Source of the DNA: Photorhabdus heterorhabditis
Lineage (GTDB): Bacteria > Pseudomonadota > Gammaproteobacteria > Enterobacterales > Enterobacteriaceae
DNA length: 64,000 nt
Direction of reading: 5' to 3'
NCBI RefSeq assembly: GCF_018448905.1
Contig: NZ_RCWA01000008.1
Location: 112,031-176,030 of the forward strand
The translations under genes were made by a program, and so were the position numbers. Under the pieces are notes generated by a model that was not told the origin of the DNA, did not search any database, and saw only the letters and a list, made by a program, of their open reading frames with translations. Positions 31,562 to 59,264 of the stretch are shown here, piece by piece (positions within the stretch are counted from its first letter, which is position 1; every line of letters starts with the position of its first letter).

Positions 31562-31888
31562 TCAGAGATTAGCATCCAAAAATTCTTTCAACTGAGTTTT
31601 TGACAATGCCCCCACTTTGGTGGCTGCTACCTGACCGTCTTTAAACAGTAGTAGCGTAGGAATACCGCGGATACCATACTTAGGAGCAGTTGCCGGGTTA
31701 TCATCAATGTTCAGTTTTGCAATCGTCAGTTTACCTAAATATTCCGGTGCAATTTCATCTAAAATAGGTGCAATCATTTTACATGGACCACACCATGCCG
31801 CCCAAAAATCGACAAGAACTGGACCCGCTGCTTTCAGAACATCAGCATCAAAGCTATCATCACTCAAATGAATAATTTTATCGCTCAT
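31562..31888 (-). CDS. trxA: Thioredoxin 1 TrxA
   Basis: Cytoplasmic dithiol reductant of 108 residues. The active site WCGPCK (Cys33 and Cys36) and the cis-proline in [10 protein letters not shown] are in place. It is divergent from rhlB and upstream of rho, the usual arrangement. Confidence 0.98.
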
Positions 31889-32006
31889 TTTTTACTCCAA
31901 AGAATAATTTTTTACCATGCTAGTGTAACATTACTGATATAAGGTTGCTTTTATTTCAGAGGATACACTTCCGTAAAACAACGGTTAACTGATATTCTAC
32001 CACACT

Positions 32007-40218: not shown

Positions 40219-41055
40219 ATGTTACATAAAATACCGTATTTTATTAAATTCTATAAGTTTCATCTGCAAGATTTAGTTTTCTCTTATAATATGAAAACCG
40301 AATGGCATCGCCACCCTTGTATACAATTAAGTGTAACACCAAATAATTCACCGATGAGGATTGATACTGACAATGAATCCAGACAAGTACATGGATTTAT
40401 TATTTCTTCTAATATAAAACATAAATTACACACAGAAGGACAACTCTGTTTTAATTTACTAATAGATCCAGCCAATCCTCTATGCCATTTGTTATCACAT
40501 CAGATGGGAAACTCAGATATAATATATTTAAGTCAAGAGTCATCCAGTTTGATAGCAAATTATTTTATTAATTGTTTACAATCAGAAACCTCTCCAGATA
40601 TTTTTATCTTAAATAACCTCTTAGGTGAAATAGAAAATTGTCATTGTTATCAGGATAAAAGGATCATGAAAGCAGCCACTCTTATCACTGAACTGCCGGT
40701 TAAATGTATATCTTCCCGAGAAATATCAAACCAACTTTATTTATCTGAAAGTCGATTTTTACATCTATTTCGAGAAAAAATGGGAACAAATTTCCGTAGC
40801 TATCTATTATGGAAACGCCTACATCATGCTATTGATGAGATACATTTATCTGATTCTCTTACTCTATTAGCCAATAATAGCGGGTTTTCCGATAGCGCAC
40901 ATTTCAGTCGTACCTGTATGATGCTATATGGATTAAGACCATCTGAGTTAAAAAATGCTTGTATGAATAAATCACAACAAAAACAACTCAATTTTTCATC
41001 AACATTAACAGGATTAAATTTTCCAAAGCAAAATACCTATGTCATGCATAAATAG
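40219..41055 (+). CDS. AraC-family transcriptional regulator
   Basis: 278 residues. The N-terminal half looks cupin-like (WHRHPCIQLSVTPN near 28-41), suited to binding a small ligand. The C-terminal half (about 150-255) carries the double helix-turn-helix of AraC proteins: ISSREISNQLYLSESRFLHLF, then LTLLANNSGFSDSAHFSRTC and the closing YGLRPSEL. It lies next to a biosynthetic cluster and is its likely local regulator, with the long palindromes at 42561-42650 as possible targets; both points are inference. Convergent with the flavoprotein gene. Confidence 0.85.
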   Translation: MLHKIPYFIKFYKFHLQDLVFSYNMKTEWHRHPCIQLSVTPNNSPMRIDTDNESRQVHGFIISSNIKHKLHTEGQLCFNLLIDPANPLCHLLSHQMGNSDIIYLSQESSSLIANYFINCLQSETSPDIFILNNLLGEIENCHCYQDKRIMKAATLITELPVKCISSREISNQLYLSESRFLHLFREKMGTNFRSYLLWKRLHHAIDEIHLSDSLTLLANNSGFSDSAHFSRTCMMLYGLRPSELKNACMNKSQQKQLNFSSTLTGLNFPKQNTYVMHK

Positions 41056-41128
41056 TATTTTTGATAAGTTATTTAAAATAAATAAATCCTATTTATAATT
41101 GTTATTATCAAGAGCCAGTATGTTAAAG

Positions 41129-41191
41129 ATTCTGTATCATTCTACACCAATAACATATTTAAATTATGTACTTTTAGTAATGATACAGAAT
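41129..41191. repeat. Long inverted repeat between araC-type and flavoprotein genes
   Basis: ATTCTGTATCATT (41129-41141) and AATGATACAGAAT (41179-41191) are perfect 13-base complements around 37 bases, which hold a smaller ACATA/TATGT stem. It lies between two convergent genes and could be a bidirectional terminator (weak in G+C) or a protein site. Confidence 0.55.
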
Positions 41192-41285
41192 TCAAAATAA
41201 TTTCATAACAATATCAGCCAATAAGTCACGAATCCATGACAAATAAAACATACAGAGTAAAATATCACTATCCTGTACTAATCAT

Positions 41286-42371
41286 TCATTTTAATGATAC
41301 ATGCTCTTTCAGATAATTTTCTACCCATTTAGCTATCCTGTTTGTATCTTTATAAGCGCCTAATATTAGTTCAGAACCACGGCTACTCAGCCATTTCCGC
41401 CCGACGATAAATAACCCTGGGTAAGGTGTTTTTCCACCTTCTGCATAACCACTTTCACAAACAAATCCATTGGTATCCGCAGCGCCAGGAAGAGTCAACC
41501 ATGCTGTATTATCTTTATAACCCAAGCACCAAATAACAGTATCTGCCTCATATTGATTACCAGACAAATCACATAATTTATTATCTTTTATGTCAACCAA
41601 TCTATTTGCTATTTTTACACCAAAAGCAGCTAACCGATGATTTTTCAGATCCCCACAAGGAATAGGATTACGCCGGCGCATGATTTTTCCTACCAGACTA
41701 TAATAATTAGCAAACAACAGACCACTTTTACTCAACCACCAAAAGATATCTTTACCCATTATTCTATTCGGTAAGAGAGGACGAGAAGAACCGCAAAATA
41801 ACGTCACATTCGTAGTAGCCGCTAAATCTTTCGCAATTTGGCGCCCACTAGCACCATCACCAATGACAGCGACTCTACTACCTTCTTTAATTTGCCTAGG
41901 CTCCTGATATTTATCTGCCGCCAGTTGCTGTATATCAGCTGAAAGTTGCTTAGCAAATGCAGGAACATCAGCTAACTGATTAGCACCCGTTGCATTAACC
42001 AGACAAGGCGCATTAAATACTTTCCCATCTTTCGTTTTAACACGGTAGCCGTTTTTATCATGCGTCACTTCAACTACTTCGGTTTGAGTATGTATATTAA
42101 GGTTATGATGTATAGCATAGCGTTCGAGGTAATCGGCAACTTCATTTTTATCCGGATATCCATCTTCGATTCCAGGAAACGGGAGGCCATGAAGCTGGGT
42201 CATACCACGTGAAGTGAATAATAACATATTATCAGGGCGCCTACGCCATACATCACCAATACGCGCATTTCGCTCTAATATGCAGACATTAATATTCTTA
42301 GTCGCGAGGATAGCGGCTAAACTTAACCCGGCTTGACCGGCACCCACAATTAAACAGTCCATTTTCACCAT
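41286..42371 (-). CDS. FAD-dependent monooxygenase-like protein (CzcO/YUCCA type)
   Basis: 361 residues with two Rossmann motifs: an FAD site GAGQAG at 10-15 followed by ERNARIGDVWRRRPDNMLLFT, and an NAD(P)H site GDGASG at 171-176. This pattern is shared by flavin-containing monooxygenases and the CzcO-like family. VNATGA and TVIWCLGYK are the ATG-type motifs. It is divergent from the LuxE-family gene over a palindrome-rich spacer, so it may be co-regulated with that operon. Plausible roles are N- or S-oxygenation or Baeyer-Villiger-type oxidation of the cluster product. Substrate unknown. Confidence 0.85.
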   Translation of the reverse strand: MVKMDCLIVGAGQAGLSLAAILATKNINVCILERNARIGDVWRRRPDNMLLFTSRGMTQLHGLPFPGIEDGYPDKNEVADYLERYAIHHNLNIHTQTEVVEVTHDKNGYRVKTKDGKVFNAPCLVNATGANQLADVPAFAKQLSADIQQLAADKYQEPRQIKEGSRVAVIGDGASGRQIAKDLAATTNVTLFCGSSRPLLPNRIMGKDIFWWLSKSGLLFANYYSLVGKIMRRRNPIPCGDLKNHRLAAFGVKIANRLVDIKDNKLCDLSGNQYEADTVIWCLGYKDNTAWLTLPGAADTNGFVCESGYAEGGKTPYPGLFIVGRKWLSSRGSELILGAYKDTNRIAKWVENYLKEHVSLK

Positions 42372-42759
42372 GCGTACTCGTTTTTAATTCGTAATTTATC
42401 GGTATCTTATTTTTTATCATTATCCCAATCTTAGAACAATAAAAATTTTTATAAAAAAACCATTCAATAGATTAAAAAACAATGAACTCCACGAAAATAT
42501 AAAAGATAATTAAACAATTTACTTGAATTAACTGGTCATATTCGTATTAAAGTGGATATTTTGAATAAATCAGCTGTTCTTATCATTAATTTATCAATAT
42601 TGATAAGTCCATATAGTTATCAGCAATAATAATACAGCCGATTTATTCAATAAAATGACATAATTAATAACTATCCTTTTTGCCTACGTAACTTATGCAT
42701 TATTGCTATAACATATAATAAACAAAGATGAATTCATCTACTCTACCGGAGATGCAAAA
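42372..42759. promoter_or_regulatory. Divergent control region of the flavoprotein and luxE-family operons
   Basis: 388 A+T-rich bases between two divergent starts, without a coding frame. Both promoters must be here or nearby. The luxE-family gene has a good ribosome site (GGAG eight bases before the ATG), and a TATAAT-like box lies near 42712. The main structure is the nested palindrome listed separately. Confidence 0.6.
42561..42650. repeat. Nested palindrome upstream of the luxE-family operon
   Basis: The outer arms TTGAATAAATCAGCTGT (42561-42577) and ACAGCCGATTTATTCAA (42634-42650) pair over 17 positions with one mismatch. Between them is the perfect 16-base palindrome TTATCAATATTGATAA (42591-42606). 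The right arm ends about 110 bases before the luxE-family start. Arm length and nesting suggest operator sites or a cruciform rather than a terminator. Confidence 0.7.
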
Positions 42760-43938
42760 ATGGAAAATATCAAAAATATATATGATGGTATAAAGTCTCG
42801 TGGAGGAAATCCGCTGAAATGGTTAATAGCAGATGTCGACTTTCTCTATAAGCTGTCCAAAGAAGAGCAACAAGAATTAAAAACTTGTTTACTTAAAGAT
42901 GCTTTTCATTTCCATTACCATAATAATTCTTACTATAAAGATATCTGTGAAAAGCAAAATATTAAACCAGAAGATATCCAGAACTATAATGATTTAGTTC
43001 GTATTCCACTGATACCTGTTACAACTTATAAATCAGCCGAAAGTCATCGCTTATTAAGCAAGCCGTTATCTGAAATCGAACATGAAATGCGTTCAACGGG
43101 TACAAGCGGAGTTCCCAGTGTTTATCGTCGTTGCCACGATACGATGGATCACACAGTATTGGCTGTTTACTCTAATTATCGCAGCATGTTCAAAGTATCT
43201 GGCGGTGCAGGATTATGTTTATGCCCTTCAACAGAAGATATTCCAGAAATGGCGTTGGTCAAGATCTTTAATTTCCTGACAGGTTTATTAGATACTCGAC
43301 GCTATATGATCAATCAAGATCGGTTTTCCCCAGAAGATGCTCTGGATCAATTAATCCAATGGAAAGGCAAATTCACTCGGCATTTAATTGGCCCTCCATT
43401 CATGATCCATCGTTTTATCACGTTCCTAAAAGAAAATAATACCAAGCTCACTTTAGATCGCGATAGCATGGTAATCACAATGGGCGGCTGGAAACGTTTT
43501 ACCGGAGATATGATCTCCCGCGGTGAACTGAATACAGATATTGAAGAATGGATGGGAATTCCAGCATCCCGGACACGTGATATGTACGGTCTGGTTGAGG
43601 CAAACGTTCTTGCTATAGAAGATGAATATAACCATAAGCATATTCCGCCTTATATTCATTTCTCCGTCCGTGATCCTAATGATTTATCGCGCGAGCTACC
43701 CGATGGTGAAACAGGGCAATTAGTGATTCTGGACCCACTTTCTGTTTCCACTCCAGGTATGTTACTAACAGAAGATTTGGTCTACTTACGCACTGATCCT
43801 AACAAATCCTGGCGTAATTCTCAGAGAATTCAGTTTGTTATGCGCACTGCTGCCGCTAAAGAATTTGGTTGTTGTGCGGTCAATCTTGAGAGAAAAATGT
43901 CAAACGACGAAGATTCCTCGGCTACCCCCGCTGTATAA
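42760..43938 (+). CDS. LuxE-family acyl-activating enzyme
   Basis: 392 residues matching the LuxE acyl-protein synthetase family, an ANL-like adenylating enzyme that activates an acid as acyl-AMP and passes it to a cysteine. Visible are the phosphate-binding loop RSTGTSGVPS (111-120), MGGWKRF (241-247), RDMYGLVEAN (273-282) and a C-terminal KEFGCCAVNLERK. Its Cys371/Cys372 lie where LuxE has its acyl-carrying cysteine. No luxC, D, A or B is nearby, so this is not the bioluminescence reductase. It heads an operon with Fe-S-type sulfur genes and an ACP. Probable role: loading a starter acid onto the ACP or onto sulfur; substrate unknown. Confidence 0.85.
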   Translation: MENIKNIYDGIKSRGGNPLKWLIADVDFLYKLSKEEQQELKTCLLKDAFHFHYHNNSYYKDICEKQNIKPEDIQNYNDLVRIPLIPVTTYKSAESHRLLSKPLSEIEHEMRSTGTSGVPSVYRRCHDTMDHTVLAVYSNYRSMFKVSGGAGLCLCPSTEDIPEMALVKIFNFLTGLLDTRRYMINQDRFSPEDALDQLIQWKGKFTRHLIGPPFMIHRFITFLKENNTKLTLDRDSMVITMGGWKRFTGDMISRGELNTDIEEWMGIPASRTRDMYGLVEANVLAIEDEYNHKHIPPYIHFSVRDPNDLSRELPDGETGQLVILDPLSVSTPGMLLTEDLVYLRTDPNKSWRNSQRIQFVMRTAAAKEFGCCAVNLERKMSNDEDSSATPAV

Positions 43939-43963
43939 GCTGTATAAATAGCAAGGTGGAATT

Positions 43964-44320
43964 ATGTTTAACAGCATCATTATTGACAATTTTTGTAATC
44001 CTGACTGCCAGGGGGAGTTATCCAAACCCACAATTAAGCTGGCGTTAGGCAACCCTGTATGTGGTGACAAGGTTGATATTGACCTGACATTGGATAACCA
44101 GGGGCGGATAGATAATGCCTGTTTTCGTGCATGGGGATGCACGGCATCCCTGGCAATGTCTAACCAATTTTGTCGTCACGCTAAAGGCAAAACTCTTGAA
44201 GAACTAAACGCATTATCACCTGACGGCATTGATGCGTTATTAGGAGAGTTAGAACCAGCCCAGCAACACTGCCTTGATATGCTGCATAAGCTATTCGAGC
44301 AGCTAAAGGGAAAAATATGA
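43964..44320 (+). CDS. IscU/SufU/NifU-N-like scaffold protein
   Basis: 118 residues of the IscU/SufU fold. The three cluster- or persulfide-binding cysteines and the modulating aspartate are all present: Cys33 and Asp35 (NPVCGD), Cys59 (AWGCTASLAMS) and Cys103 (AQQHCLDML). Extra cysteines occur at 11, 15, 53 and 70. It lacks the IscU LPPVK chaperone motif. Its stop overlaps the cysteine desulfurase start as ATGA, so they form a pair. It may act as sulfur acceptor for the pathway rather than as a general Fe-S scaffold, since no hscBA, fdx or iscA accompany it. Confidence 0.85.
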   Translation: MFNSIIIDNFCNPDCQGELSKPTIKLALGNPVCGDKVDIDLTLDNQGRIDNACFRAWGCTASLAMSNQFCRHAKGKTLEELNALSPDGIDALLGELEPAQQHCLDMLHKLFEQLKGKI

Positions 44321-45501
44321 CAAGCCTATACTTCGACTACAACGCCACAACACCGCTAAGTGTTAAAGCGCAGCTGGCGATTAAAGACGCTTTGTCTGTT
44401 TTTGCTAATCCATCCAGTCACTACAGCTTAAGCAACATGGCTAAAAACTTGCTCACCGACGCCAGAAGATCTATGGCGTCATTAATGGGCACGGTACCAG
44501 AACACATCCTGTTTACATCAGGAGGAACCGAAAGTAATAACCAAGCGTTGTCCAGCCTGTTAGCGACACTTCCCGGCTCGGATCTGTCTGCACATCATGT
44601 CATTAGCTCTTCCATTGAACATCCGTCTGTTCTGGCACCATTACTCTGGTACCAGCAACGCGGACTTCAGTTGACGCTAATCGATCCTGATAATCAGGGA
44701 CGAATAAGTGTACAAAGCATTGAGAAAAACTTGCGGCCAGAAACACGCCTGATCACATTAATGGCAATTAACAATGAAACCGGAGTGATACAGCCCTATG
44801 AAGCCGTCGCCTCTTTGGCAAAAGAGGCCCGTGTTTATCTGCACATAGATGCGGTACAGGCTATTGGTAAACTGCCTTTTAGCTGCGACACGTTTGATGG
44901 CATAACAACCGTATCTTTCTCTGGTCATAAATTTAATGGTCCTAAAGGTATTGGTGGTCTTTATCATGCACCAGGCATTCCATTAAATCCTTTACTACAC
45001 GGCGGAGGACAAGAACAAGGAATACGCAGTGGCACTGAGAACACGCTGGGCCTTGCGGGACTCGCTGCCGCAGCTAAAGAATCTCTGAACGGGTTGAAAG
45101 AACGTTTCGATACCTACAAAACACGCAGAGAAACCTTGCTATCTCTGTTGGAACAACATCATGTTAACTATCTGGTTAATGGCAGTACAAACCCAGAGTT
45201 TCAAGCCCCCTGGACACTCAATTTAAGTTTCCCTGGGGTCCGAGCTGAATCATTGGCCAGTAGGTTGGATTTATGTCACGGAGTCTCCTTATCTTTAGGA
45301 TCAGCCTGTAGTAATAACAAATCAACGCAACGTTCTCATGTTCTGGTTGCTATGGGGCTGCCTGATGATCGTATTGATAGCGCGGTACGTATCAGTTTTG
45401 GATATACAACAAGCCAAAATGATATTGAAATGCTGGCTAACGCTATCAAACAGGAAACTTATAACTTGCTGAAAATTTCGGGCAAATCTTTAAACGCTTA
45501 G
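44317..45501 (+). CDS. Cysteine desulfurase (NifS/IscS class)
   Basis: 394-residue class V PLP enzyme releasing sulfur from cysteine as a protein persulfide. PLP lysine is Lys205 in FSGHKFNGPKGIG; other cofactor contacts are His102 (SSIEHPSV) and the HIDAVQ segment (176-181). The catalytic Cys331 sits in LSLGSACSNNKSTQRSHVL, the group I loop position. It is translationally coupled to the scaffold gene and lies between the acyl-activating enzyme and the ACP. That setting suggests dedicated sulfur supply. It could also back up Fe-S assembly. Confidence 0.92.
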   Translation: MTSLYFDYNATTPLSVKAQLAIKDALSVFANPSSHYSLSNMAKNLLTDARRSMASLMGTVPEHILFTSGGTESNNQALSSLLATLPGSDLSAHHVISSSIEHPSVLAPLLWYQQRGLQLTLIDPDNQGRISVQSIEKNLRPETRLITLMAINNETGVIQPYEAVASLAKEARVYLHIDAVQAIGKLPFSCDTFDGITTVSFSGHKFNGPKGIGGLYHAPGIPLNPLLHGGGQEQGIRSGTENTLGLAGLAAAAKESLNGLKERFDTYKTRRETLLSLLEQHHVNYLVNGSTNPEFQAPWTLNLSFPGVRAESLASRLDLCHGVSLSLGSACSNNKSTQRSHVLVAMGLPDDRIDSAVRISFGYTTSQNDIEMLANAIKQETYNLLKISGKSLNA

Positions 45502-45535
45502 GAATAACAGTAAAACAACATTTAAAGACGGCGTA

Positions 45536-45579
45536 GCAGGAATAATTAACTTATTACCTATTGATACCTATATTCCTGC
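45536..45579 (+). repeat. Hairpin in the spacer between desulfurase and ACP genes
   Basis: GCAGGAATA (45536-45544) and TATTCCTGC (45571-45579) are perfect 9-base complements around a 26-base loop. There is no T-run. It may protect the 5' side of an ACP-only transcript or mark a processing site. Confidence 0.45.
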
Positions 45580-45623
45580 ACCTAAGCTCCGTTAATATTT
45601 TTTAGACTTTACGGGATATTAAT

Positions 45624-45860
45624 ATGAAACTATTTGAATTACTGCAATCTCAGATTACTGAATTGACTGATATCGAACCAGAGGACATTACTCTTGATAC
45701 CTTACTTGATGACATTCATTTAGTAAGCTTAGATTTTGTATCCATTCAGGTTGCGTTAAAAAGAGAAATGGGTATTCAACTGAATTTCGATAAATTCCAG
45801 AGAGATAATACGACGACAATCGGCGATTTCGTCAATTACGTCAGTGAAGCAACAAAATAA
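45624..45860 (+). CDS. Acyl carrier protein, variant motif
   Basis: 78 residues with the four-helix ACP layout. The phosphopantetheine serine is most likely Ser35 in LVSLDFVSIQVAL, at the start of helix II. The usual aspartate before it (DSL) is valine here, giving VSL, while the following LD is kept. The third-helix region KFQRDNTTTIGDFVNYV is normal. It is preceded by a weak ribosome site and followed by a terminator-like hairpin, so it may be made in excess over its neighbours. Presumed carrier for the ketosynthase and reductase downstream. Confidence 0.88.
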   Translation: MKLFELLQSQITELTDIEPEDITLDTLLDDIHLVSLDFVSIQVALKREMGIQLNFDKFQRDNTTTIGDFVNYVSEATK

Positions 45861-45879
45861 TTATTATCAATATACTTGG

Positions 45880-45926
45880 ATGTTAGCTGTCTATGGCATA
45901 TCACGACACAGCTAACATTTATTTTT
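45880..45926 (+). terminator. Terminator-like hairpin after the ACP gene
   Basis: ATGTTAGCTGT (45880-45890) and ACAGCTAACAT (45908-45918) are perfect 11-base complements around 17 bases, followed by TTATTTTT. It lies 20 bases after the ACP stop and about 90 before the ketosynthase. Either partial read-through or a separate promoter must serve the downstream genes. Confidence 0.7.
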
Positions 45927-46014
45927 GTGATGCTTTTATCTACCAATCCCATTATTTGGTTGTATTAAAAAATAAAGCATGTCACCAGGAACTTACTTTT
46001 GGAGATAATGTTTC

Positions 46015-47280
46015 ATGAATTTTCAAACTAACTACCGCCGCGTTGCCATCACAGGCTATGGTTCTATCTGTTCTCTTGGGCAAAATACTCAGGAAATTTG
46101 GGATGCAATCCTAAACTATCGTATAGGTTACAAAAAGGAAACCCACCCAGACGCTTCTGTTGTTGCAAAATTCTTCGGCAACATACCTTTTTCTCCTGAT
46201 GTGTCACGATTTTCCAAAAAGTTGCTAAAGAACCTTCCCAGATTCAGCAAACTTGGGCTGATTGCTGCGGACGATGCAATCAAAATGGCATTTGGTAACG
46301 ATAAAGCAGCCCTTGACGAAAGTTATTCACCTTTTGAACGAGGTGTCATTTTTGGTACTGGCTGGGGTGGAGAAGATGCAACCGTTGAAAACAGCCATTC
46401 CTATGCTACCCAAGGTATTGCCTCACCCATGACAAATATTATGTCCATGCACAGCGTGGGCACGGCAGCTATTTCAATGAATTGGAATTTACGGGGATAT
46501 CAGAATACCCCAGTTGCAGCGTGTGCAACTGGCAGTATGGCAATAGGAGATGCTTTTGAACTTATTCGAAGCGGACGCACTAAAATGATGCTGGCAGGTG
46601 GCGGTGAAAGTATCAGAGATCCTTTCATTGTTTGGAGCATCGACATTCTTGGCGCACTCAGTAAGGAACAGGAATCTGTCGAAAAAGCCTGTTGCCCATT
46701 TAGCAAAGACCGTAGTGGTTTTGTGATGTCAGAAGGCGCGGCAGTATTATGCCTTGAAGATTATGACAGTGCCGTTGCCAGGGGAGCCAAAATACTGGCA
46801 GAAGTCATCGGCTATGGTAACTGCTCCGATGCATCTGATATGACAGCACCAGCACCAGATTGCAAAGGACGAGTAATGGCGATTCAAACGGCACTGGAAC
46901 AAGCCCAACTCTCCGCTTCAGATATTCACTATATCAATGCCCATGGGACATCAACCCCATTAAACGATATTAACGAAACTGATGTTCTAAAAATGAGCCT
47001 GGGAGAACACGCCTACCATGTTCCTATTTCCAGTACCAAATCCTACACCGGCCATCTTATTGCCGGGGCAGGAGCAATTGAATCCATTTTCTGTATCAAA
47101 GCAATAGAAACAGCCACTATTCCCGCAACTATGCACTTGAACAATCCAGATCCGCTATGCGATCTGGATTACGTACCTAATATCCACCGAACTCACCAAG
47201 TTATTGATACTGCTTTAAATGTTAACTATGGATTTGGCGGTACAAACTGTGCGCTTATTTTCAGGAAAGCCGACAGATGA
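46015..47280 (+). CDS. Beta-ketoacyl-ACP synthase (KAS II type)
   Basis: 421-residue condensing enzyme like FabF. The active-site Cys-His-His triad is complete: Cys170 (VAACATGSMA), His310 (INAHGTSTPLND) and His347 (STKSYTGHLIAGAG), with Lys342. It is therefore a catalytic synthase, not a chain-length factor. It overlaps the following hydratase-like gene by 4 bases. It should elongate the acyl group on the cluster ACP with malonyl units, which must come from the host FabD as no acyltransferase is encoded here. Confidence 0.93.
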   Translation: MNFQTNYRRVAITGYGSICSLGQNTQEIWDAILNYRIGYKKETHPDASVVAKFFGNIPFSPDVSRFSKKLLKNLPRFSKLGLIAADDAIKMAFGNDKAALDESYSPFERGVIFGTGWGGEDATVENSHSYATQGIASPMTNIMSMHSVGTAAISMNWNLRGYQNTPVAACATGSMAIGDAFELIRSGRTKMMLAGGGESIRDPFIVWSIDILGALSKEQESVEKACCPFSKDRSGFVMSEGAAVLCLEDYDSAVARGAKILAEVIGYGNCSDASDMTAPAPDCKGRVMAIQTALEQAQLSASDIHYINAHGTSTPLNDINETDVLKMSLGEHAYHVPISSTKSYTGHLIAGAGAIESIFCIKAIETATIPATMHLNNPDPLCDLDYVPNIHRTHQVIDTALNVNYGFGGTNCALIFRKADR

Positions 47281-48095
47281 ATGTTCAATTTAGCAAAGAA
47301 GATCTTAAACAGTGGGCTGAATTCTCCGGAGACTACAATCCCATCCATTTTGATGAAAAAATCGCAAGAGAAGTTGGATTGGGTGGCATTGCAGTACACG
47401 GCATGTTGGCAATGATCCCGCTTAAAAGTGGATATCACCATTCATCGCAACCGAACGAGAACATTGGCAGGCAATGGCACGTTAACTTACGCAATCCCGT
47501 GCCCCTGGATGCTTGCTATTGCATTAAAACTAAGCATATTGACTTGAATGGGAAAACTACTTTTAATCTACAAGATGAAATAACAAACCTAAAACTTTTA
47601 GTGGGTCATTATAGTTGCTTCGATTTTTCGCAAAAAACCCGCTTTCTGGAAAAACCACAATGTCAGGTTCCCCTACAAGAAACAATAAGAAAGTCCATTG
47701 AATTCAAGAATACCTTTCCTAGGGTCAATGAGTTCTGGATCTTTCTGGATGCCCTGATTTTTTATCTCTTTATGCAACAAAGTGCAAAAACTGCACTAGC
47801 AACGGAATTTAAAAACTATTTCGGCAAACAAGGGAGACATGATGAAACATGCCTCAAAGATCTTATCGTCTTACATGTTATGCATACAGTGAGTTTCTCT
47901 CCAGCCCTGCTCAATCGCGAAATCCCAGATGAAATGCCAAGCATCGAATATTCGATCCTACCCAAGGATACCTTTGATGTTGATGGCTCATTATACGGTA
48001 CGTTGGAAATTCCGATCTGGCTAAATGGAGAAATCGTTTTAGTTGTTGAAATGAGTCTGATGGGAACAACAAAAAGAAAACAGATTACCAACTAA
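47277..48095 (+). CDS. MaoC-type hydratase-like protein with extra C-terminal domain
   Basis: 272 residues. The N-terminal half (about 1-130) is a hotdog fold of the MaoC/(R)-specific enoyl hydratase type, with the catalytic pair Asp19 and His24 in FSGDYNPIHFDE and the HGML segment at 45-48. It probably dehydrates or hydrates a beta-hydroxyacyl-ACP. The C-terminal half (about 140-272), from RVNEFWIFLDALIFYLF to the end, does not match anything I recognise and may be a degenerate second hotdog. Start overlaps the ketosynthase stop (ATGA). Confidence 0.8.
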   Translation: MNVQFSKEDLKQWAEFSGDYNPIHFDEKIAREVGLGGIAVHGMLAMIPLKSGYHHSSQPNENIGRQWHVNLRNPVPLDACYCIKTKHIDLNGKTTFNLQDEITNLKLLVGHYSCFDFSQKTRFLEKPQCQVPLQETIRKSIEFKNTFPRVNEFWIFLDALIFYLFMQQSAKTALATEFKNYFGKQGRHDETCLKDLIVLHVMHTVSFSPALLNREIPDEMPSIEYSILPKDTFDVDGSLYGTLEIPIWLNGEIVLVVEMSLMGTTKRKQITN

Positions 48096-48150
48096 GGTTG
48101 ATGAATTCTGTATTGGCAGACGGATGGCATAAATTTAGAGGAATCGATTA

Positions 48151-48894
48151 ATGAATATCAGCATACCTTGGGTTTTTGTTTCAGGGGGATCTCGTGGTAT
48201 TGGCAAAGGCATAGTAAAAATGCTAGCCACTCAAAATTATCATGTGATTTTTACCTACAAATCAAGCACAAGTGAAGCTCAAATACTTTGTCAGGAAATT
48301 AAGCAACAAGGTTATAGCTGTGAAGGCCATCAATGTGACGTATCGAATGCTAAAGAAGTCGCAACACTATCAGCAAAACTTATCTCACAATATGGCCCTC
48401 CCTATGCAATTATCAATAACGCAGGAATTACACAAGATGCATTACTGATAAATATGAAAGAAGAAGAGTGGCACAATGTGATTTCCACCAATCTCTCCTC
48501 TGTTTATTTAGTTAATCACGCATTTCTACCTGAAATGCTCACTGCTGGAGAGGGCTGCATTATTCACATGAGTTCAGTCACCGCATTTAAAGCTAATTCA
48601 GGGCAAGTTAACTACGCTGCAACCAAAGCCGCTATGATCGGCATTACCCGCTCATTAGCCGTTGAAGTTGGCCGATTTAACATTCGCGTTAATACAGTTG
48701 CTCCAGGCTTGATTGATACTGAAATGCTAGATCACATCCCCGCACCACATAAGAAAAAACTATTATCCAATATTCCACTGGGTCGTTTAGGGTCAGCGGA
48801 AGATATTGCCCTGACAATCAATTTCCTGCTTAGCCCTGGAGGGCGTTACATCACCGGGCAAACATTCGTTATTGATGGGGGCATGACTGCCTGA
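48151..48894 (+). CDS. 3-oxoacyl-ACP reductase (FabG type)
   Basis: 247-residue short-chain dehydrogenase. The cofactor motif is SGGSRGIGKG (11-20), NNAG at 89-92, and the catalytic tetrad Asn114, Ser142, Tyr155 and Lys159 is complete (NYAATKAA). The C-terminal GRYITGQTFVIDGGMTA is typical of FabG. It would reduce the beta-keto group made by the upstream ketosynthase. With the hydratase it completes all elongation steps except enoyl reduction. Confidence 0.93.
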   Translation: MNISIPWVFVSGGSRGIGKGIVKMLATQNYHVIFTYKSSTSEAQILCQEIKQQGYSCEGHQCDVSNAKEVATLSAKLISQYGPPYAIINNAGITQDALLINMKEEEWHNVISTNLSSVYLVNHAFLPEMLTAGEGCIIHMSSVTAFKANSGQVNYAATKAAMIGITRSLAVEVGRFNIRVNTVAPGLIDTEMLDHIPAPHKKKLLSNIPLGRLGSAEDIALTINFLLSPGGRYITGQTFVIDGGMTA

Positions 48895-48948
48895 TCCGTT
48901 TAAGCAACTGGCATCAGTGGTCTCGTATCCATAATCCAACAGTTATTT

Positions 48949-48973
48949 GTACCCAGAAAAATATTCTGGGTAC
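48949..48973. repeat. Perfect hairpin after the fabG-type gene
   Basis: GTACCCAGAA and TTCTGGGTAC form a perfect 10-base stem with a five-base loop, 54 bases after the stop codon. It lacks a T-run, so a terminator or mRNA 3'-stabilising role is possible but not shown. Confidence 0.55.
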
Positions 48974-49132
48974 TGACACCCAATGCCATTAGTCATAAAT
49001 CACATCGTCAGATAGACAACCGGCATCTCAGATAAATGTTAATGACCATGATAAATAATTTCAATGTTAATAATATATTTAGCATTAAGTGCTAAATATC
49101 ACAAATTTTAAATTTATCAATGCTAATAAAGC

Positions 49133-49164
49133 TTGACCTTGAAGTCGACTCCAAGGTGTTTAAT
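49133..49164 (+). promoter_or_regulatory. MerR-type promoter of emrAB
   Basis: A -35 box TTGACC (49133-49138) and a -10 box TTTAAT (49159-49164) are separated by 20 bases, longer than normal. The spacer holds a 22-base near-perfect palindrome (49136-49157) running from ACCTTG to CAAGGT around AGTCGACT, with one mismatched pair. This over-long spacer with a central dyad is the hallmark of promoters activated by MerR-family regulators through DNA distortion; zntA is a similar case. No merR-type gene lies in the window. Confidence 0.8.
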
Positions 49165-49223
49165 CAAACACAAATACATTAACAAGAATAATTTATTTTT
49201 GATCGCTGTTATGGGAGAGGAAC

Positions 49224-50396
49224 ATGGCCGAAGAAATACAATCACCTCCACTTAGTGAGAAAAAGTCAAAACGTAAGTTAGCGCTGATCCTCGCAACTCT
49301 CTTATTTGTTTTTGCCGGATTAGGTTACTTTGCCTATTGGTTTATTGCACTGCGTCATTACCAAGCTACTGATGATGCTTATGTTGTCGGTAATCAAGTG
49401 CAAGTCATGGCACAAATCACGGGAAGCGTAACCACTATCTATGCCGATAATACCGACTTCGTCCAGCAGGGAGACATTCTGCTGCGTTTAGATAGTATTG
49501 ATGCAGAACATGCCTTTGAACGGGCAAAAAACACACTGGCTAATCATGTCAGACAAACCCACCAGACCATCATTGATAATGAAAAGTTGCTGGCTAATAT
49601 TGAGCTAAAAAAAACTGTACTACAGCAAGCTCAGGATGATTTGAAACGACGTGAACATCTGGGAATAACAGGCGCTATCGCCAAAGAAAATCTCATTCAT
49701 GCCCGTAATAGCGTTCGAATGGCAAAGTCTGAGCTAAATGTCGCCCGGCAACAATACTATGCTAATAAAGCGTTAATTATAGATACCCCATTAGAACAAC
49801 AGCCAGCCATTAAACTTGCCGCCTCCCAACTCCGTGATACATGGTTAACCTTACAGCGCACCCAAATTACAGCCCCCGTGACAGGCTACGTTTCACGCCG
49901 TAGTGTTCAGGTAGGATCACAAATAAAAAGCGGTGCCCCGCTGATGGTTATCGTGCCTGCTAATCAACTTTGGGTCGAAGCTAACTTCAAAGAGGTACAA
50001 CTTGCCAATGTACGTATTGGTCAACCAGTAACCCTGATTAGCGATTTCTATGGTAGTGATGTTACTTATCAGGGCCGGATCGTAGGTCTTGATATGGGTA
50101 CTGGTAGCGCATTTTCTTTACTACCCGCACAAAACGCCACCGGTAACTGGATCAAAGTGGTCCAACGTTTGCCTGTCCGTGTTGAACTGGAAGCCCAGCA
50201 GCTTATTGATCACCCTTTACGGATCGGTTTATCCATGCATGCCACTGTCGATACCAGAAATCAAGATGGTCTAGTGCTTGCCGACACACCTCGCAATGGC
50301 ATTGTTTATGAAACCAGCGTTTTGTCTTACAACACAGGAGAAATTGATCGGCTAATTAACGAAATTATTCAAGTTAATACCAGTCAAAATGAGTGA
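49224..50396 (+). CDS. emrA: Membrane fusion protein of an EmrAB-type efflux pump
   Basis: 390 residues (as E. coli EmrA). One N-terminal transmembrane helix (about 20-41), then the HlyD-type periplasmic layout: YQATDDAYVVGNQVQVMAQITGSV with the first lipoyl half, a coiled-coil hairpin (about 100-190), the second lipoyl half TQITAPVTGYVSRRSVQVG, and a beta barrel. A GGGAGAGG-like ribosome site lies directly upstream. It links EmrB to a TolC-type outer-membrane channel. Driven by the MerR-type promoter upstream. Confidence 0.92.
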   Translation: MAEEIQSPPLSEKKSKRKLALILATLLFVFAGLGYFAYWFIALRHYQATDDAYVVGNQVQVMAQITGSVTTIYADNTDFVQQGDILLRLDSIDAEHAFERAKNTLANHVRQTHQTIIDNEKLLANIELKKTVLQQAQDDLKRREHLGITGAIAKENLIHARNSVRMAKSELNVARQQYYANKALIIDTPLEQQPAIKLAASQLRDTWLTLQRTQITAPVTGYVSRRSVQVGSQIKSGAPLMVIVPANQLWVEANFKEVQLANVRIGQPVTLISDFYGSDVTYQGRIVGLDMGTGSAFSLLPAQNATGNWIKVVQRLPVRVELEAQQLIDHPLRIGLSMHATVDTRNQDGLVLADTPRNGIVYETSVLSYNTGEIDRLINEIIQVNTSQNE

Positions 50397-50403
50397 GGTT
50401 AAC

Positions 50404-51921
50404 ATGCTAAAAGAGCCATTATCAGGAGCCAAACTTGGCTGGCTAACCCTGGCTTTAGCATTAGCCGCTTTTTTACAAATATTAGACCTGACCATTGCTA
50501 ACGTTGCAATATCGACGATTGCCGGAGATTTGGGTTCATCGGTATCGCAGGGTACTTGGGTTATCACTTCATTTGCTGTTGCTAATGCGATTTCTATCCC
50601 ATTAACTGGCTGGTTAGCTAAACAGTTTGGAGAAGTTCGTGTTTTCTTAATTTCAATGATCTTGTTTGTGATAACTTCCTGGTTGTGCGGTATTGCTAAT
50701 AGCTTGGAAATGTTGATTATTTCCCGCATTTTACAAGGTATCTCAGCCGGGCCGATTATGCCCCTTTCACAAAGTTTATTACTAAACAACTACCCTCCAC
50801 TAAAACGAAATATGGCACTGGCAATGTGGTCAATGACTATCGTTGTCGCTCCAGTTTGTGGTCCCATACTCGGTGGTTGGATCAGTGACAACTATCATTG
50901 GGGATGGATCTTCCTTATCAATGTCCCGGTCGGCTGTGCCGTTATCGCTATCACCTGGGCGCTATTAAAAAATCGGGAAACTGAAACAAAGATCAGACCA
51001 ATTGATGGCGTAGGACTGATTTTATTGATTACCGGTGTCGGCTGTTTTCAGTTATTACTCGATAGAGGGAAGGAACTTGACTGGTTTAACTCAGCAGAAA
51101 TTATTGCCTTAGCGATTATCGCGATTATTACCATTACTTTCCTGATCATCTGGGAACTGACCGATGATGATCCGATCATTGATTTATCACTCTTTAAATC
51201 ACGTAATTTTACTATCGGTACTTTATGTATCAGTCTGGCCTTCTTACTCCACATCGGTACTCTGGTTCTACAGCCCCAACTATTACAGATGGTCTTCGGT
51301 TATACGGCCACTTGGGCAGGATTGGTAATGGCCCCATTAGGGATAGTGCCGATAATACTTGCTCCACTGATTGGCCGTTTTAGTTCAAAAATCGATATGC
51401 GTTATTTGGTGATGTTCAGCTTTATCGTTTTTGCACTGTGTTTTTTTTGGCGGGCTTATACCTTCGAGCTATCAATGGACTTTGCTACCGCTGCCTGGCC
51501 ACAGTTTATTCAAGGCTTTGCTATTGCCTGTTTAATAATGCCACTAGCCGCCATTATTTTGTCCGATGTCGAACCCGCTAAAGTCGCCTCTGCGGGCAGC
51601 CTGTTCAACTTCCTACGCACTCTGGCAACATCCGTGGGCATCTCAATTACCACTACCATGTGGTCCCGCCGTGAAGCAGTCCATCACGTTCAATTAACTG
51701 AGTCGATAACCCCACATAATCCCATTGCTCAGCAAGCCTATCAGAAAATGGAGCTGTTAGGGATGTCACAGCCTCAAGCTAGCAGCTCTCTGGCGCGCGA
51801 AATCACCAATCAAGGATTGATTATTGCCGCTAACGAGCTTTACTGGCTATTTGGCTTTATTTTTCTCATCTTACTGTTTCTTATCTGGCTGGCAAAACCC
51901 ACAATTGGAGAGAAAAAATAA
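50404..51921 (+). CDS. emrB: MFS drug exporter of EmrAB type
   Basis: DHA2-family (14-helix) proton antiporter. The ATG at 50404 has GAGG five bases upstream and gives 505 residues starting MLKEPLSGAKLG, like E. coli EmrB. An ATG at 50389 overlapping emrA would add five residues. Signature segments are LDLTIANVAISTIAGDLG (motif D1), ILGGWISDNYHWGWIFLINVP (motif C region) and TWAGLVMAPLG. It may export the product of the neighbouring cluster or general uncouplers and drugs; adjacency is the only evidence for the former. Confidence 0.92.
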   Translation: MLKEPLSGAKLGWLTLALALAAFLQILDLTIANVAISTIAGDLGSSVSQGTWVITSFAVANAISIPLTGWLAKQFGEVRVFLISMILFVITSWLCGIANSLEMLIISRILQGISAGPIMPLSQSLLLNNYPPLKRNMALAMWSMTIVVAPVCGPILGGWISDNYHWGWIFLINVPVGCAVIAITWALLKNRETETKIRPIDGVGLILLITGVGCFQLLLDRGKELDWFNSAEIIALAIIAIITITFLIIWELTDDDPIIDLSLFKSRNFTIGTLCISLAFLLHIGTLVLQPQLLQMVFGYTATWAGLVMAPLGIVPIILAPLIGRFSSKIDMRYLVMFSFIVFALCFFWRAYTFELSMDFATAAWPQFIQGFAIACLIMPLAAIILSDVEPAKVASAGSLFNFLRTLATSVGISITTTMWSRREAVHHVQLTESITPHNPIAQQAYQKMELLGMSQPQASSSLAREITNQGLIIAANELYWLFGFIFLILLFLIWLAKPTIGEKK

Positions 51922-51967
51922 AACAATAACAAAGGTGGAAACCTCTGTGCACACTAAACCTTTTTTC

Positions 51968-51994
51968 AAAATAGCACCCCGAAGGTGCTATTTT
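51968..51994. terminator. Bidirectional terminator between emrB and ilvA
   Basis: AAAATAGCACC and GGTGCTATTTT form a perfect 11-base stem with a CCGAA loop, flanked by A and T runs for both directions. It ends the accessory region transcript and the ilvGMEDA transcript. Confidence 0.85.
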
Positions 51995-52035
51995 GTTGTT
52001 CTATAGAATATATCTTTTTCACGTCAAAACACTTA

Positions 52036-58388: not shown

Positions 58389-58471
58389 TTTTCATATCCC
58401 CTGTGTTTACTCTGTGAGACAAAATTTTGTTCTGTTGTATGTTTTTGCCTCTGCTTGATTTCCACCTGCCG

Positions 58472-58504
58472 AAAAAAAACCCCCGCGCCTTTCGGTGCGG
58501 GGGT
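58472..58504 (-). terminator. ilvGMEDA attenuator
   Basis: On the minus strand ACCCCCGC and GCGGGGGT flank ACCGAAAGGC and are followed by T8, between the leader peptide gene and ilvG. This is the classical attenuator terminator, released when ribosomes stall in ilvL. Confidence 0.95.
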
Positions 58505-58527
58505 CTTCGAGAGATCTGGCTGTTCGT

Positions 58528-58626
58528 CTAAGCCTGTCTTCGTCCAAGTGCAGCCCCGCACGGTGGGATAATAATCACCACCACGCTGACGATAACTAGG
58601 CTAATCACTTGGACGAATGCGTTCAT
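58528..58626 (-). CDS. ilvL: ilvGMEDA leader peptide IlvL
   Basis: 32-residue leader peptide, beginning MNAFVQVISLVIVSVV and ending GAALGRRQA; it matches the E. coli peptide closely. It is packed with valine and isoleucine codons (GTG GTG GTG ATT ATT ATC in a row) plus leucine codons, so ribosome stalling senses all three amino acids. Followed by the attenuator. Confidence 0.96.
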   Translation of the reverse strand: MNAFVQVISLVIVSVVVIIIPPCGAALGRRQA

Positions 58627-59264
58627 AATTCTGATCGTTTAACTCGTTTGTTTTACGTATATTTAAGAGTTACCATGTTCTTCATAACTAAACAACTTTT
58701 ATTTTATTTTTTTACTTCATATTAAAAAATATCCTTTGTTTTCAACATAATAATTAAACCCCGAATTATTTACCCAAAAAAAATCATCCTTAAGTGATAA
58801 AAACCAACTAATTTTAGATAAGAACGAAATAATCCATAAGAAATAAATCAGAGAATCAAATTATTAAACTGTTATCAGATCAATATCTGATTATTAATCA
58901 CCTGAGTAACAAAAATTTATAATTATTAATAAAATCGAATTACATAAAACACCAATTTTATTTACCGAAATAATATATTAACTAAAAGTTTAAATATGCT
59001 ATTTCACTAAAAAATCAGTCTCAGAGCGCTATTTAAAACTTATAAGAAGAATATAAAAACAATAAACATCATGATTAACACCACAAATTAATAAATAGAT
59101 TAAAATCAATATCTTAATAAAAAATCACAAATCATTTTATGAAGAAGAACTTTAGAACCACTTCGCAAAATATTTCTCAGAGCCATCTCGCAAAAAAATA
59201 ACAGGACACTATTTATTATCTAATTTCAGGCCATCATATACGCTTTATTATGAAGGAGAATAGA
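58627..59264. other. ilvL-comM divergent spacer
   Basis: About 640 very A+T-rich bases between the ilvL and comM starts. The ilvGMEDA promoter must lie near the left end but no clear -35/-10 pair stood out. No coding frame, tRNA or strong hairpin was seen. The comM ribosome site AAGGAG lies at the right end. Confidence 0.5.

Follow-up and report, generated by a model that had tools for sequence, protein, structure and literature searches.

A LuxE–IscU–cysteine desulfurase cassette at the core of a putative thiocarboxylate-type natural-product cluster in Photorhabdus heterorhabditis

The 64,000-nucleotide stretch of the Photorhabdus heterorhabditis genome analyzed here (NZ_RCWA01000008.1, positions 112,031 to 176,030; hereafter the window) carries at 40219–51921 a gene cluster whose core is a triad of adjacent genes encoding a LuxE-family acyl-adenylating enzyme, an IscU-like scaffold and a cysteine desulfurase (CD), while the genes surrounding this triad are swapped between organisms. 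Which genes are present, how far they are conserved, which residues are invariant and how the modules are swapped can be read directly from the compared sequences. We tentatively propose a horizontally spread natural-product cluster composed of a sulfur cassette, a chain-building module and an exporter, in which the triad would make a thiocarboxylic acid that is subsequently oxidized; we rate this slightly below an even chance. The thiocarboxylate reading of the triad is based on the chemistry known for the families, i.e., ATP-dependent formation of acyl-AMP and acyl-cysteine by LuxE and of a persulfide by CD, together with the near-obligate adjacency of the genes. An initial annotation had named nine genes with intact catalytic residues and combined acid activation, sulfur mobilization, chain elongation on an acyl carrier protein (ACP) and oxidation by a flavoprotein. 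Pfam and NCBIfam scans, which for the window covered ten open reading frames (ORFs) at 40219–50396, found all nine ORFs in place and agreed with their families; the EmrA/EmrB pump at 49224–51921 had been overlooked. Overall, that annotation is partly supported: it was largely right, with elongation as an add-on.

To define the core, we scanned species genomes with strict peptide patterns seeded on LuxE alone. The locus is not unique: this search returned 43 loci, a number that is a lower bound. They belong to two phyla, Pseudomonadota and Bacillota, and comprise 12 loci from Photorhabdus, eight from Xenorhabdus, two each from Cellvibrio, Pseudomonas and Lysobacter, one each from Photobacterium, Azohydromonas, Pseudoduganella, Deefgea, Curvibacter, Actibacterium and a Granulosicoccaceae bin, and ten from Bacillota. 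In 42 of the 43, the LuxE, IscU and CD genes follow each other in this order, adjacent and on the same strand; the exception, L052, contains a partial LuxE only. The LuxE subfamily is rare and was found in 2/398 genomes drawn from the phylum, including that of P. heterorhabditis (E≤1e-60). LuxE was also detected in 14 Priestia plasmid records, and exactly these 14 rank first in the IscU search; CD follows in the one that was inspected. A LuxE scan of viral contigs confirmed no relative. Pairwise distances of LuxE, IscU and CD correlate with r values of 0.85–0.89 across 26 loci, figures that still include shared species history.

In a desulfurase tree built from 24 rows, of which 21 are cassette copies selected out of 45 and three are other sequences, the three non-cassette CDs group together (100/99), and so do the cassettes of the window, two Xenorhabdus strains and Photobacterium (100/99), which suggests that the chain module was swapped under a single cassette lineage. 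Five forks of this tree are open and three rows are of unusual composition; with three outside rows, a single origin of all cassettes is not proven. We rejected the idea that IscU and CD are housekeeping genes or passengers: the genome's own iscS and iscU lie at a separate site, their products are only 35% (IscS) and 32% (IscU) identical to the cluster copies, and the adjacency to LuxE holds in 42/43 loci. Acid activation and sulfur mobilization thus belong to one unit, as the initial annotation had it. In Actibacterium and Lysinibacillus, a transglutaminase-like gene lies beside the triad (L045:6979-7662, L049:15742-16434 and L050:15747-16439).

The active sites of the three proteins are well preserved. 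LuxE (42760–43938, plus strand, 392 aa) matched PF04443 with 130.6 bits against a cut-off of 24.9, and stayed below the narrower luminescence model NF052244 (147.7 of 550 bits). It keeps the ATP-site residues and a cysteine that aligns with the acyl-Cys of LuxE, here part of a vicinal pair, Cys371-Cys372. The corresponding motif GCCA is present in 45 of 46 LuxE rows, which represent the 43 scan loci, two other fetched loci and the window and include one duplicate contig; the deviating row reads SRCS and presumably corresponds to the fragment in L052, with the reading continued in frame. By comparison, only one Cys occupies this site in each of eight other members of the LuxE family. Two of these come from lux operons, that of the genome itself and that of a laboratory plasmid (93% identical); a second pair is from the genome's second LuxE cluster and its same-genus counterpart (90% identical), and the remaining four are from two further genomes and two further plasmids. 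The IscU/NifU_N-like protein (43964–44320, plus strand, 118 aa) has C33, D35 and C59 in 45/45 copies and H102 and C103 in 44/45, the miss being L048, which is gapped there. LPPVK, the motif through which IscU binds HscA, was found in none of the 45 IscU-like copies, and the site reads xPxQ or xPxH in the 44 ungapped rows; the genome's housekeeping IscU has LPPVK. CD (44317–45501, plus strand, 394 aa), a NifS/IscS-type enzyme of the class V aminotransferases, contains His204-Lys205 and Cys331 in the window copy, with K205 in 45/45 and C331 in 44/45 copies.

Membership in the LuxE family also raises the idea of a bioluminescence-like route to a fatty aldehyde or an acyl-protein, in which IscU and CD would be passengers. 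We consider this highly improbable: neither LuxC nor LuxD has a match among the ten scanned genes, the genome carries a luxCDABE operon elsewhere (L065, recognized from translations) whose LuxE scores 640 bits, and the near-constant neighborhood of IscU and CD speaks against passengers. A further cluster of the same genome (L066, G000:C45:22000-30000) also contains a LuxE-like protein; judging from translations, it additionally encodes two adenylating proteins, one of which, with 802 residues, is LuxC-like as well.

In the route that we favor, the desulfurase would form an enzyme persulfide with sulfur drawn from cysteine, and the IscU-like protein, having lost the chaperone-binding motif of Fe-S delivery, would relay this sulfur. 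LuxE would adenylate a carboxylic acid and hold the acyl group as a thioester on its Cys-Cys motif, where the relayed persulfide sulfur could attack it; the second Cys would then help to resolve the acyl-persulfide, releasing a thiocarboxylic acid (R-COSH). The acid used in Photorhabdus would be built on the dedicated ACP in one or a few rounds by a beta-ketoacyl-ACP synthase (KAS), FabG and MaoC, whereas in other loci a fatty acyl-AMP ligase (FAAL) would load a ready-made fatty acid on ACP. The flavoprotein would oxidize the product, most likely on sulfur, to an acylsulfenic acid or similar compound, which EmrAB would export under AraC-type control.

The chain-building module of the window consists of four plus-strand genes. 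They encode an ACP (45624–45860, 78 aa, PP-binding) with Ser35 in a VSL instead of a DSL motif, a FabF-type KAS (46015–47280, 421 aa) with an intact Cys-His-His triad (ACATGS at 169, NAHGT at 308, GHL at 346), a MaoC-type hydratase (47277–48095, 272 aa) whose Pfam match covers residues 3-46 only, and a FabG-type ketoreductase of the short-chain dehydrogenase/reductase (SDR) family (48151–48894, 247 aa) with intact Y155-x3-K. D19 and H24 of MaoC are present in 13/13 aligned copies; a structure model of MaoC was discarded because of its mean pLDDT of 34. The Pfam scan of the ten ORFs revealed no acyltransferase, thioesterase or megasynthase, in line with the initial annotation, and the locus does not qualify as a classical polyketide synthase or non-ribosomal peptide synthetase cluster. 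As to the enoyl reductase, which the initial annotation likewise did not find, the top Pfam name of the FabG ORF is an enoyl-ACP reductase-type SDR (PF13561), but the best NCBIfam names are 3-oxoacyl-ACP reductase/FabG. With no enoyl reductase evident, the Photorhabdus chain would probably be unsaturated or hydroxylated.

Elongation on ACP, which the initial annotation had included in the pathway, is not part of the core. MaoC occurs in 12/43 loci, all from Photorhabdus, and the same holds for the KAS-MaoC-FabG set. Across the 43 loci, we found an ACP match in 34, FAAL in 23 and an MMPL-type resistance-nodulation-division exporter in 11; FAAL, ACP and the flavin-dependent monooxygenase (FMO) occur together in 19. 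Relatives of the chain module are located on plasmids. The Kosakonia plasmid p888-76-2 carries ACP-KAS-MaoC-FabG and one Serratia plasmid KAS-MaoC-ACP, the fetched stretch of the latter ending at the record end, and the sulfur triad is not annotated in the fetched stretch of either. Identities to the window are 58% (Kosakonia) and 50% (Serratia) for KAS, 50% for FabG and 24–26% for MaoC. MaoC was detected in 14 plasmid records (12 Serratia, one Kosakonia, one Chimaeribacter), of which the Kosakonia and one Serratia record were inspected; among 369 genomes drawn from the class, only the P. heterorhabditis genome itself has it (E≤1e-15). Since both modules also occur apart, the Photorhabdus locus looks like a join of the two. 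On the Kosakonia cowanii plasmid p888-76-2 (L082), ACP-KAS-MaoC-FabG-hydrolase-methyltransferase is bracketed by rep-ppiC-ilvC-ilvY-ilvA and rho-trxA-rhlB-gppA, genes that are usually found on chromosomes; the window cluster likewise lies by ilvC. In L026 from Xenorhabdus, FAAL and ACP are fused in one 645-residue ORF, supporting ACP loading by FAAL. A Priestia plasmid has its FAAL annotated as two overlapping ORFs (L013:8817-10582), and in Peribacillus (L048:9568-16922) FAAL and FMO accompany a stretch that resembles a polyketide synthase.

The chain module allows other readings. Sulfur could be placed into another group, such as a thiol, a thiolactone or thiotetronate-like ring, a thioamide or a disulfide, starting from acyl-ACP or an unsaturated chain, with LuxE only loading or releasing the acid. 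According to family knowledge, KAS, FabG and MaoC would give an unsaturated acyl-ACP able to take sulfur at C-3, and where FAAL and LuxE are found together LuxE is perhaps not the first to act. However, LuxE lies directly beside IscU-CD even in loci in which no ACP, FAAL or KAS was found (L046, L049, L050 and L051; L047 has only a 21% FAAL-like match). This persistent adjacency ties the sulfur to the LuxE-activated carboxyl, and we regard the other placement of sulfur as rather unlikely. It is still less probable that the KAS is a resistance copy of FabF that protects against a FabF-inhibiting thioacid instead of serving biosynthesis. Thioplatensimycin and thioplatencin do bind FabF, as stated in a passage of PMC6006322, but the KAS comes with ACP, MaoC and FabG here as in the Kosakonia set, and with MaoC and ACP in the Serratia set, and the nearest other KAS in the genome is only 37% identical. 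Because of this low identity, we rejected a recent fabF duplication as its origin.

The oxidation step assumed in the thiocarboxylate route is represented by a 361-aa type II FMO-like enzyme (41286–42371, minus strand) with two GxGxxG motifs, divergent from the operon. Its nearest solved relatives are FMOs with E values of 3e-20 to 2e-22 (PDB 4usq, 4usr and 4a9w, which we take to be CFMO, PSFMO and SMFMO), and it falls within the type II FMO definition. FMO is present in 33/43 loci, in agreement with the earlier claim that an oxidizing flavoprotein is part of the system. We infer that the FMO may hydroxylate sulfur, a further step that is helped by the sulfide oxidation reported in vitro for CFMO, PSFMO and SMFMO in the relevant section of PMC4220118. 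The natural product sulfenicin, reportedly an acylsulfenic acid, points the same way.

Directly after the triad, eight of the 43 loci, all from Bacillota (Bacilli and Clostridia), carry a gene pair resembling UbiU/UbiV (L046, L047, L049, L050, L051, L053, L055 and L057). Five of these also have an acyl-CoA dehydrogenase and a major facilitator superfamily (MFS) pump. FMO is absent in seven of the eight, L053 having both, and 32/43 loci have FMO without the pair; neither was found in the fetched stretches of L033, L041 and L052. The first protein of the pair, U32a, matched U32 (PF01136) in one of eight copies, the one scanned with Pfam, and gave a weak UbiU match of 40–55 bits (cut-off 440) in the three of eight scanned with NCBIfam, with different Cys spacing. 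The second, U32b, shows the exact UbiV spacing CX12CX3C in 6/8 copies plus an upstream Cys, the two clostridial copies being off by a few residues, and it is through this spacing and its position that it suggestively resembles UbiV. As described in part of PMC6747719, UbiUV form a class of O2-independent hydroxylases that bind 4Fe-4S, with CX12CX3C as the UbiV motif. An exchange of FMO for the UbiU/UbiV-like pair would fit one shared oxidation step, although this is only suggestive.

The same pair bears on the possibility that IscU and CD are a dedicated Fe-S assembly pair for a pathway enzyme and that the product is free of sulfur. The IscU-like protein has kept all Fe-S ligands, the eight Bacillota loci combine the triad with UbiU/UbiV-like proteins that have conserved cysteines and whose namesakes bind 4Fe-4S (the same passage of PMC6747719), and a Xenorhabdus site is close to an nfuA-like gene, even though this block looks ordinary chromosomal. 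On the other hand, the 32 loci with FMO and no such pair argue against it, as do the genome's existing Isc pair and the loss of LPPVK from every copy. Among the ten scanned window genes none matches a known Fe-S enzyme, which makes the product the more likely destination of the sulfur; the flanks of the other loci were viewed without a systematic scan. Taken together, an Fe-S assembly role is quite unlikely.

Extending the thiocarboxylate proposal, LuxE-IscU-CD might be a self-contained and previously undescribed route to thiocarboxylic acids via an acyl-persulfide on a vicinal Cys-Cys LuxE, plugged into pathways in different phyla and followed by S-hydroxylation to acylsulfenic acids, with a flavin enzyme acting in aerobes and the O2-independent UbiU/UbiV-like pair in Bacilli and Clostridia. 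This full version is doubtful, and clearly less probable than the general proposal. Several observations weigh against one or both. In Photobacterium LuxE the acyl-Cys is Cys364, as given in a passage of PMC8301110, and which of the two window cysteines corresponds to it depends on the aligner (C371 with HMMER, C372 with MAFFT). With its complete Fe-S ligand set, the IscU-like protein may still build clusters, and in Peribacillus (L048) CD is split over two frames and looks broken. FAAL clusters possess two acid activators, FAAL and LuxE, for which the proposal offers no division of labor, and the five Bacilli loci with an acyl-CoA dehydrogenase have no ACP match. As to oxidation, SMFMO is also capable of Baeyer-Villiger reactions (same section of PMC4220118), FMO was not found in 10/43 fetched loci, of which L041 and L052 are perhaps cut off, and U32b matched no family in the two copies scanned with Pfam and the three scanned with NCBIfam. 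A replacement of FMO by the pair is not proven, because the split follows phylum lines and L053 has both.

In the window, the plus-strand run from LuxE (42760) to EmrB (51921) comprises nine genes, and the divergent FMO gene upstream is preceded by a gene for a 278-aa AraC-type regulator (HTH_18; 40219–41055, plus strand). Overlaps of 4 bases between IscU and CD and between KAS and MaoC make the spacing operon-like. The EmrA-type periplasmic adaptor (49224–50396, plus strand) was recognized in the family scan; the EmrB-type MFS pump (50389–51921, plus strand), which overlaps it by 8 bases, lies beyond the scanned ORFs and was named from its sequence and its place after EmrA. A terminator-like hairpin of 12 pairs follows EmrB at 51967–51995 (plus strand), a weak consensus match given that the region has 13 such sites against 8.9 expected; a promoter scan was uninformative (38 sites, 42.4 expected). 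The GC content is 40.2% in 40219–51921, compared to 43.0% in the remaining window, and 31% in the AraC gene. From translations and family knowledge, we take the genes flanking the whole cluster to be ilvC/ilvY and ilvA. Elsewhere in the window, minus-strand Rfam matches were obtained for the Rev39 5′ untranslated region of soft-rot enterobacteria (58405-58700) and for a TrxA thermometer (31859-31946).

EmrA/EmrB accompany the cluster in 11/12 Photorhabdus and 8/8 Xenorhabdus scan loci, EmrB being 72–74% identical to the Xenorhabdus copies, and an AraC-type homologue is found beside all eight Xenorhabdus clusters. Six of these eight show the order AraC, EmrB, EmrA, LuxE, IscU, CD, FAAL, ACP, FMO, whereas in L027 and L034 the pump and the regulator follow FMO. 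From these gene orders, it seems that the triad moves together with its pump and regulator, whereas the chain module varies. The chromosomal site in L014 and L026, both from Xenorhabdus, differs from that of the window, with neighbors that are presumably bioH/nfuA-like and feoB-like genes. In Photobacterium lipolyticum (L033:12874-17170), genes for an MMPL transporter and two further proteins, perhaps an envelope export set, lie behind triad-FAAL-ACP, and no FMO was found in the stretch.

A search of 59 relatives, 13 of them from the genus Photorhabdus, detected LuxE in 13/13 genomes of the genus, including that of the window, with 94–100% identity. The nearest named relatives are Photorhabdus proteins (94–97%), those of P. 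australis and P. asymbiotica being 97% identical. The ratio of non-synonymous to synonymous substitutions (dN/dS) was 0.02–0.15 for eight genes when compared to four of the 12 Photorhabdus scan loci, which indicates purifying selection and thus that the genes are kept for function. The presence of LuxE in every Photorhabdus genome examined also points to a function in the lifestyle of the genus. In P. australis (L015, 13385 onward), the FabG match is shortened and the fetched stretch, which holds no N, contains no pump gene.

Our literature search, whose scope left aside most subscription journals and bioRxiv, returned no paper on a LuxE-IscU-desulfurase cluster among the matches listed, and in the main-text part of PMC9177418, which deals with Photorhabdus and Xenorhabdus clusters, neither LuxE nor desulfurase occurs. 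A cassette that runs on ATP and brings along a desulfurase and a relay would provide a searchable marker, i.e., a GCCA LuxE beside IscU-CD. Such a marker might lead to a hidden class of sulfur metabolites, which cluster predictors keyed to polyketide synthases and non-ribosomal peptide synthetases would probably miss. The cassette also makes testable how labile acyl-sulfur groups form with and without oxygen. We know of few natural-product routes that put sulfur on a carboxyl group. An acylsulfenic-acid natural product, sulfenicin, has reportedly been described, and a flavin-dependent S-hydroxylase is reported to act on a thiocarboxylic acid in its pathway.

Among known systems, luminescence LuxE (7xc6_E) shares the family, the ATP site and the C-terminal acyl-Cys region with the LuxE of the window; the luminescence LuxE proteins of same-genus genomes are, however, only 26–28% identical to it, it has an extra vicinal Cys, and its locus lacks a LuxC or LuxD match. 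IscS and IscU of the Isc system are homologous to CD and the IscU-like protein, with the ligands kept, but in the window the order is reversed to IscU-CD, LPPVK is lost and the locus has no hscBA or ferredoxin. A functional parallel is the PtmA3/PtmU4 cassette of thioplatensimycin, also found in PDTC and TQB clusters, which according to the relevant part of PMC6006322 likewise combines an activated acid, carrier-relayed sulfur and a thiocarboxylic acid in a natural-product cassette that recurs in many genomes. There, as the same part of PMC6006322 describes, the CoA ester is formed by PtmA3, and PtmU4, a type III CoA transferase, is supplied by a sulfur-carrier protein with a GG tail, whereas the window would use LuxE together with a desulfurase of its own and a relay of the IscU type. 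The Pfam scan of the ten ORFs at 40219–50396 found no CoA transferase, and the cluster is therefore not a member of the PtmA3/PtmU4 cassette. It could well stand for thiocarboxylate-type natural-product chemistry reached by a variant route, a possibility to which we give nearly even weight.

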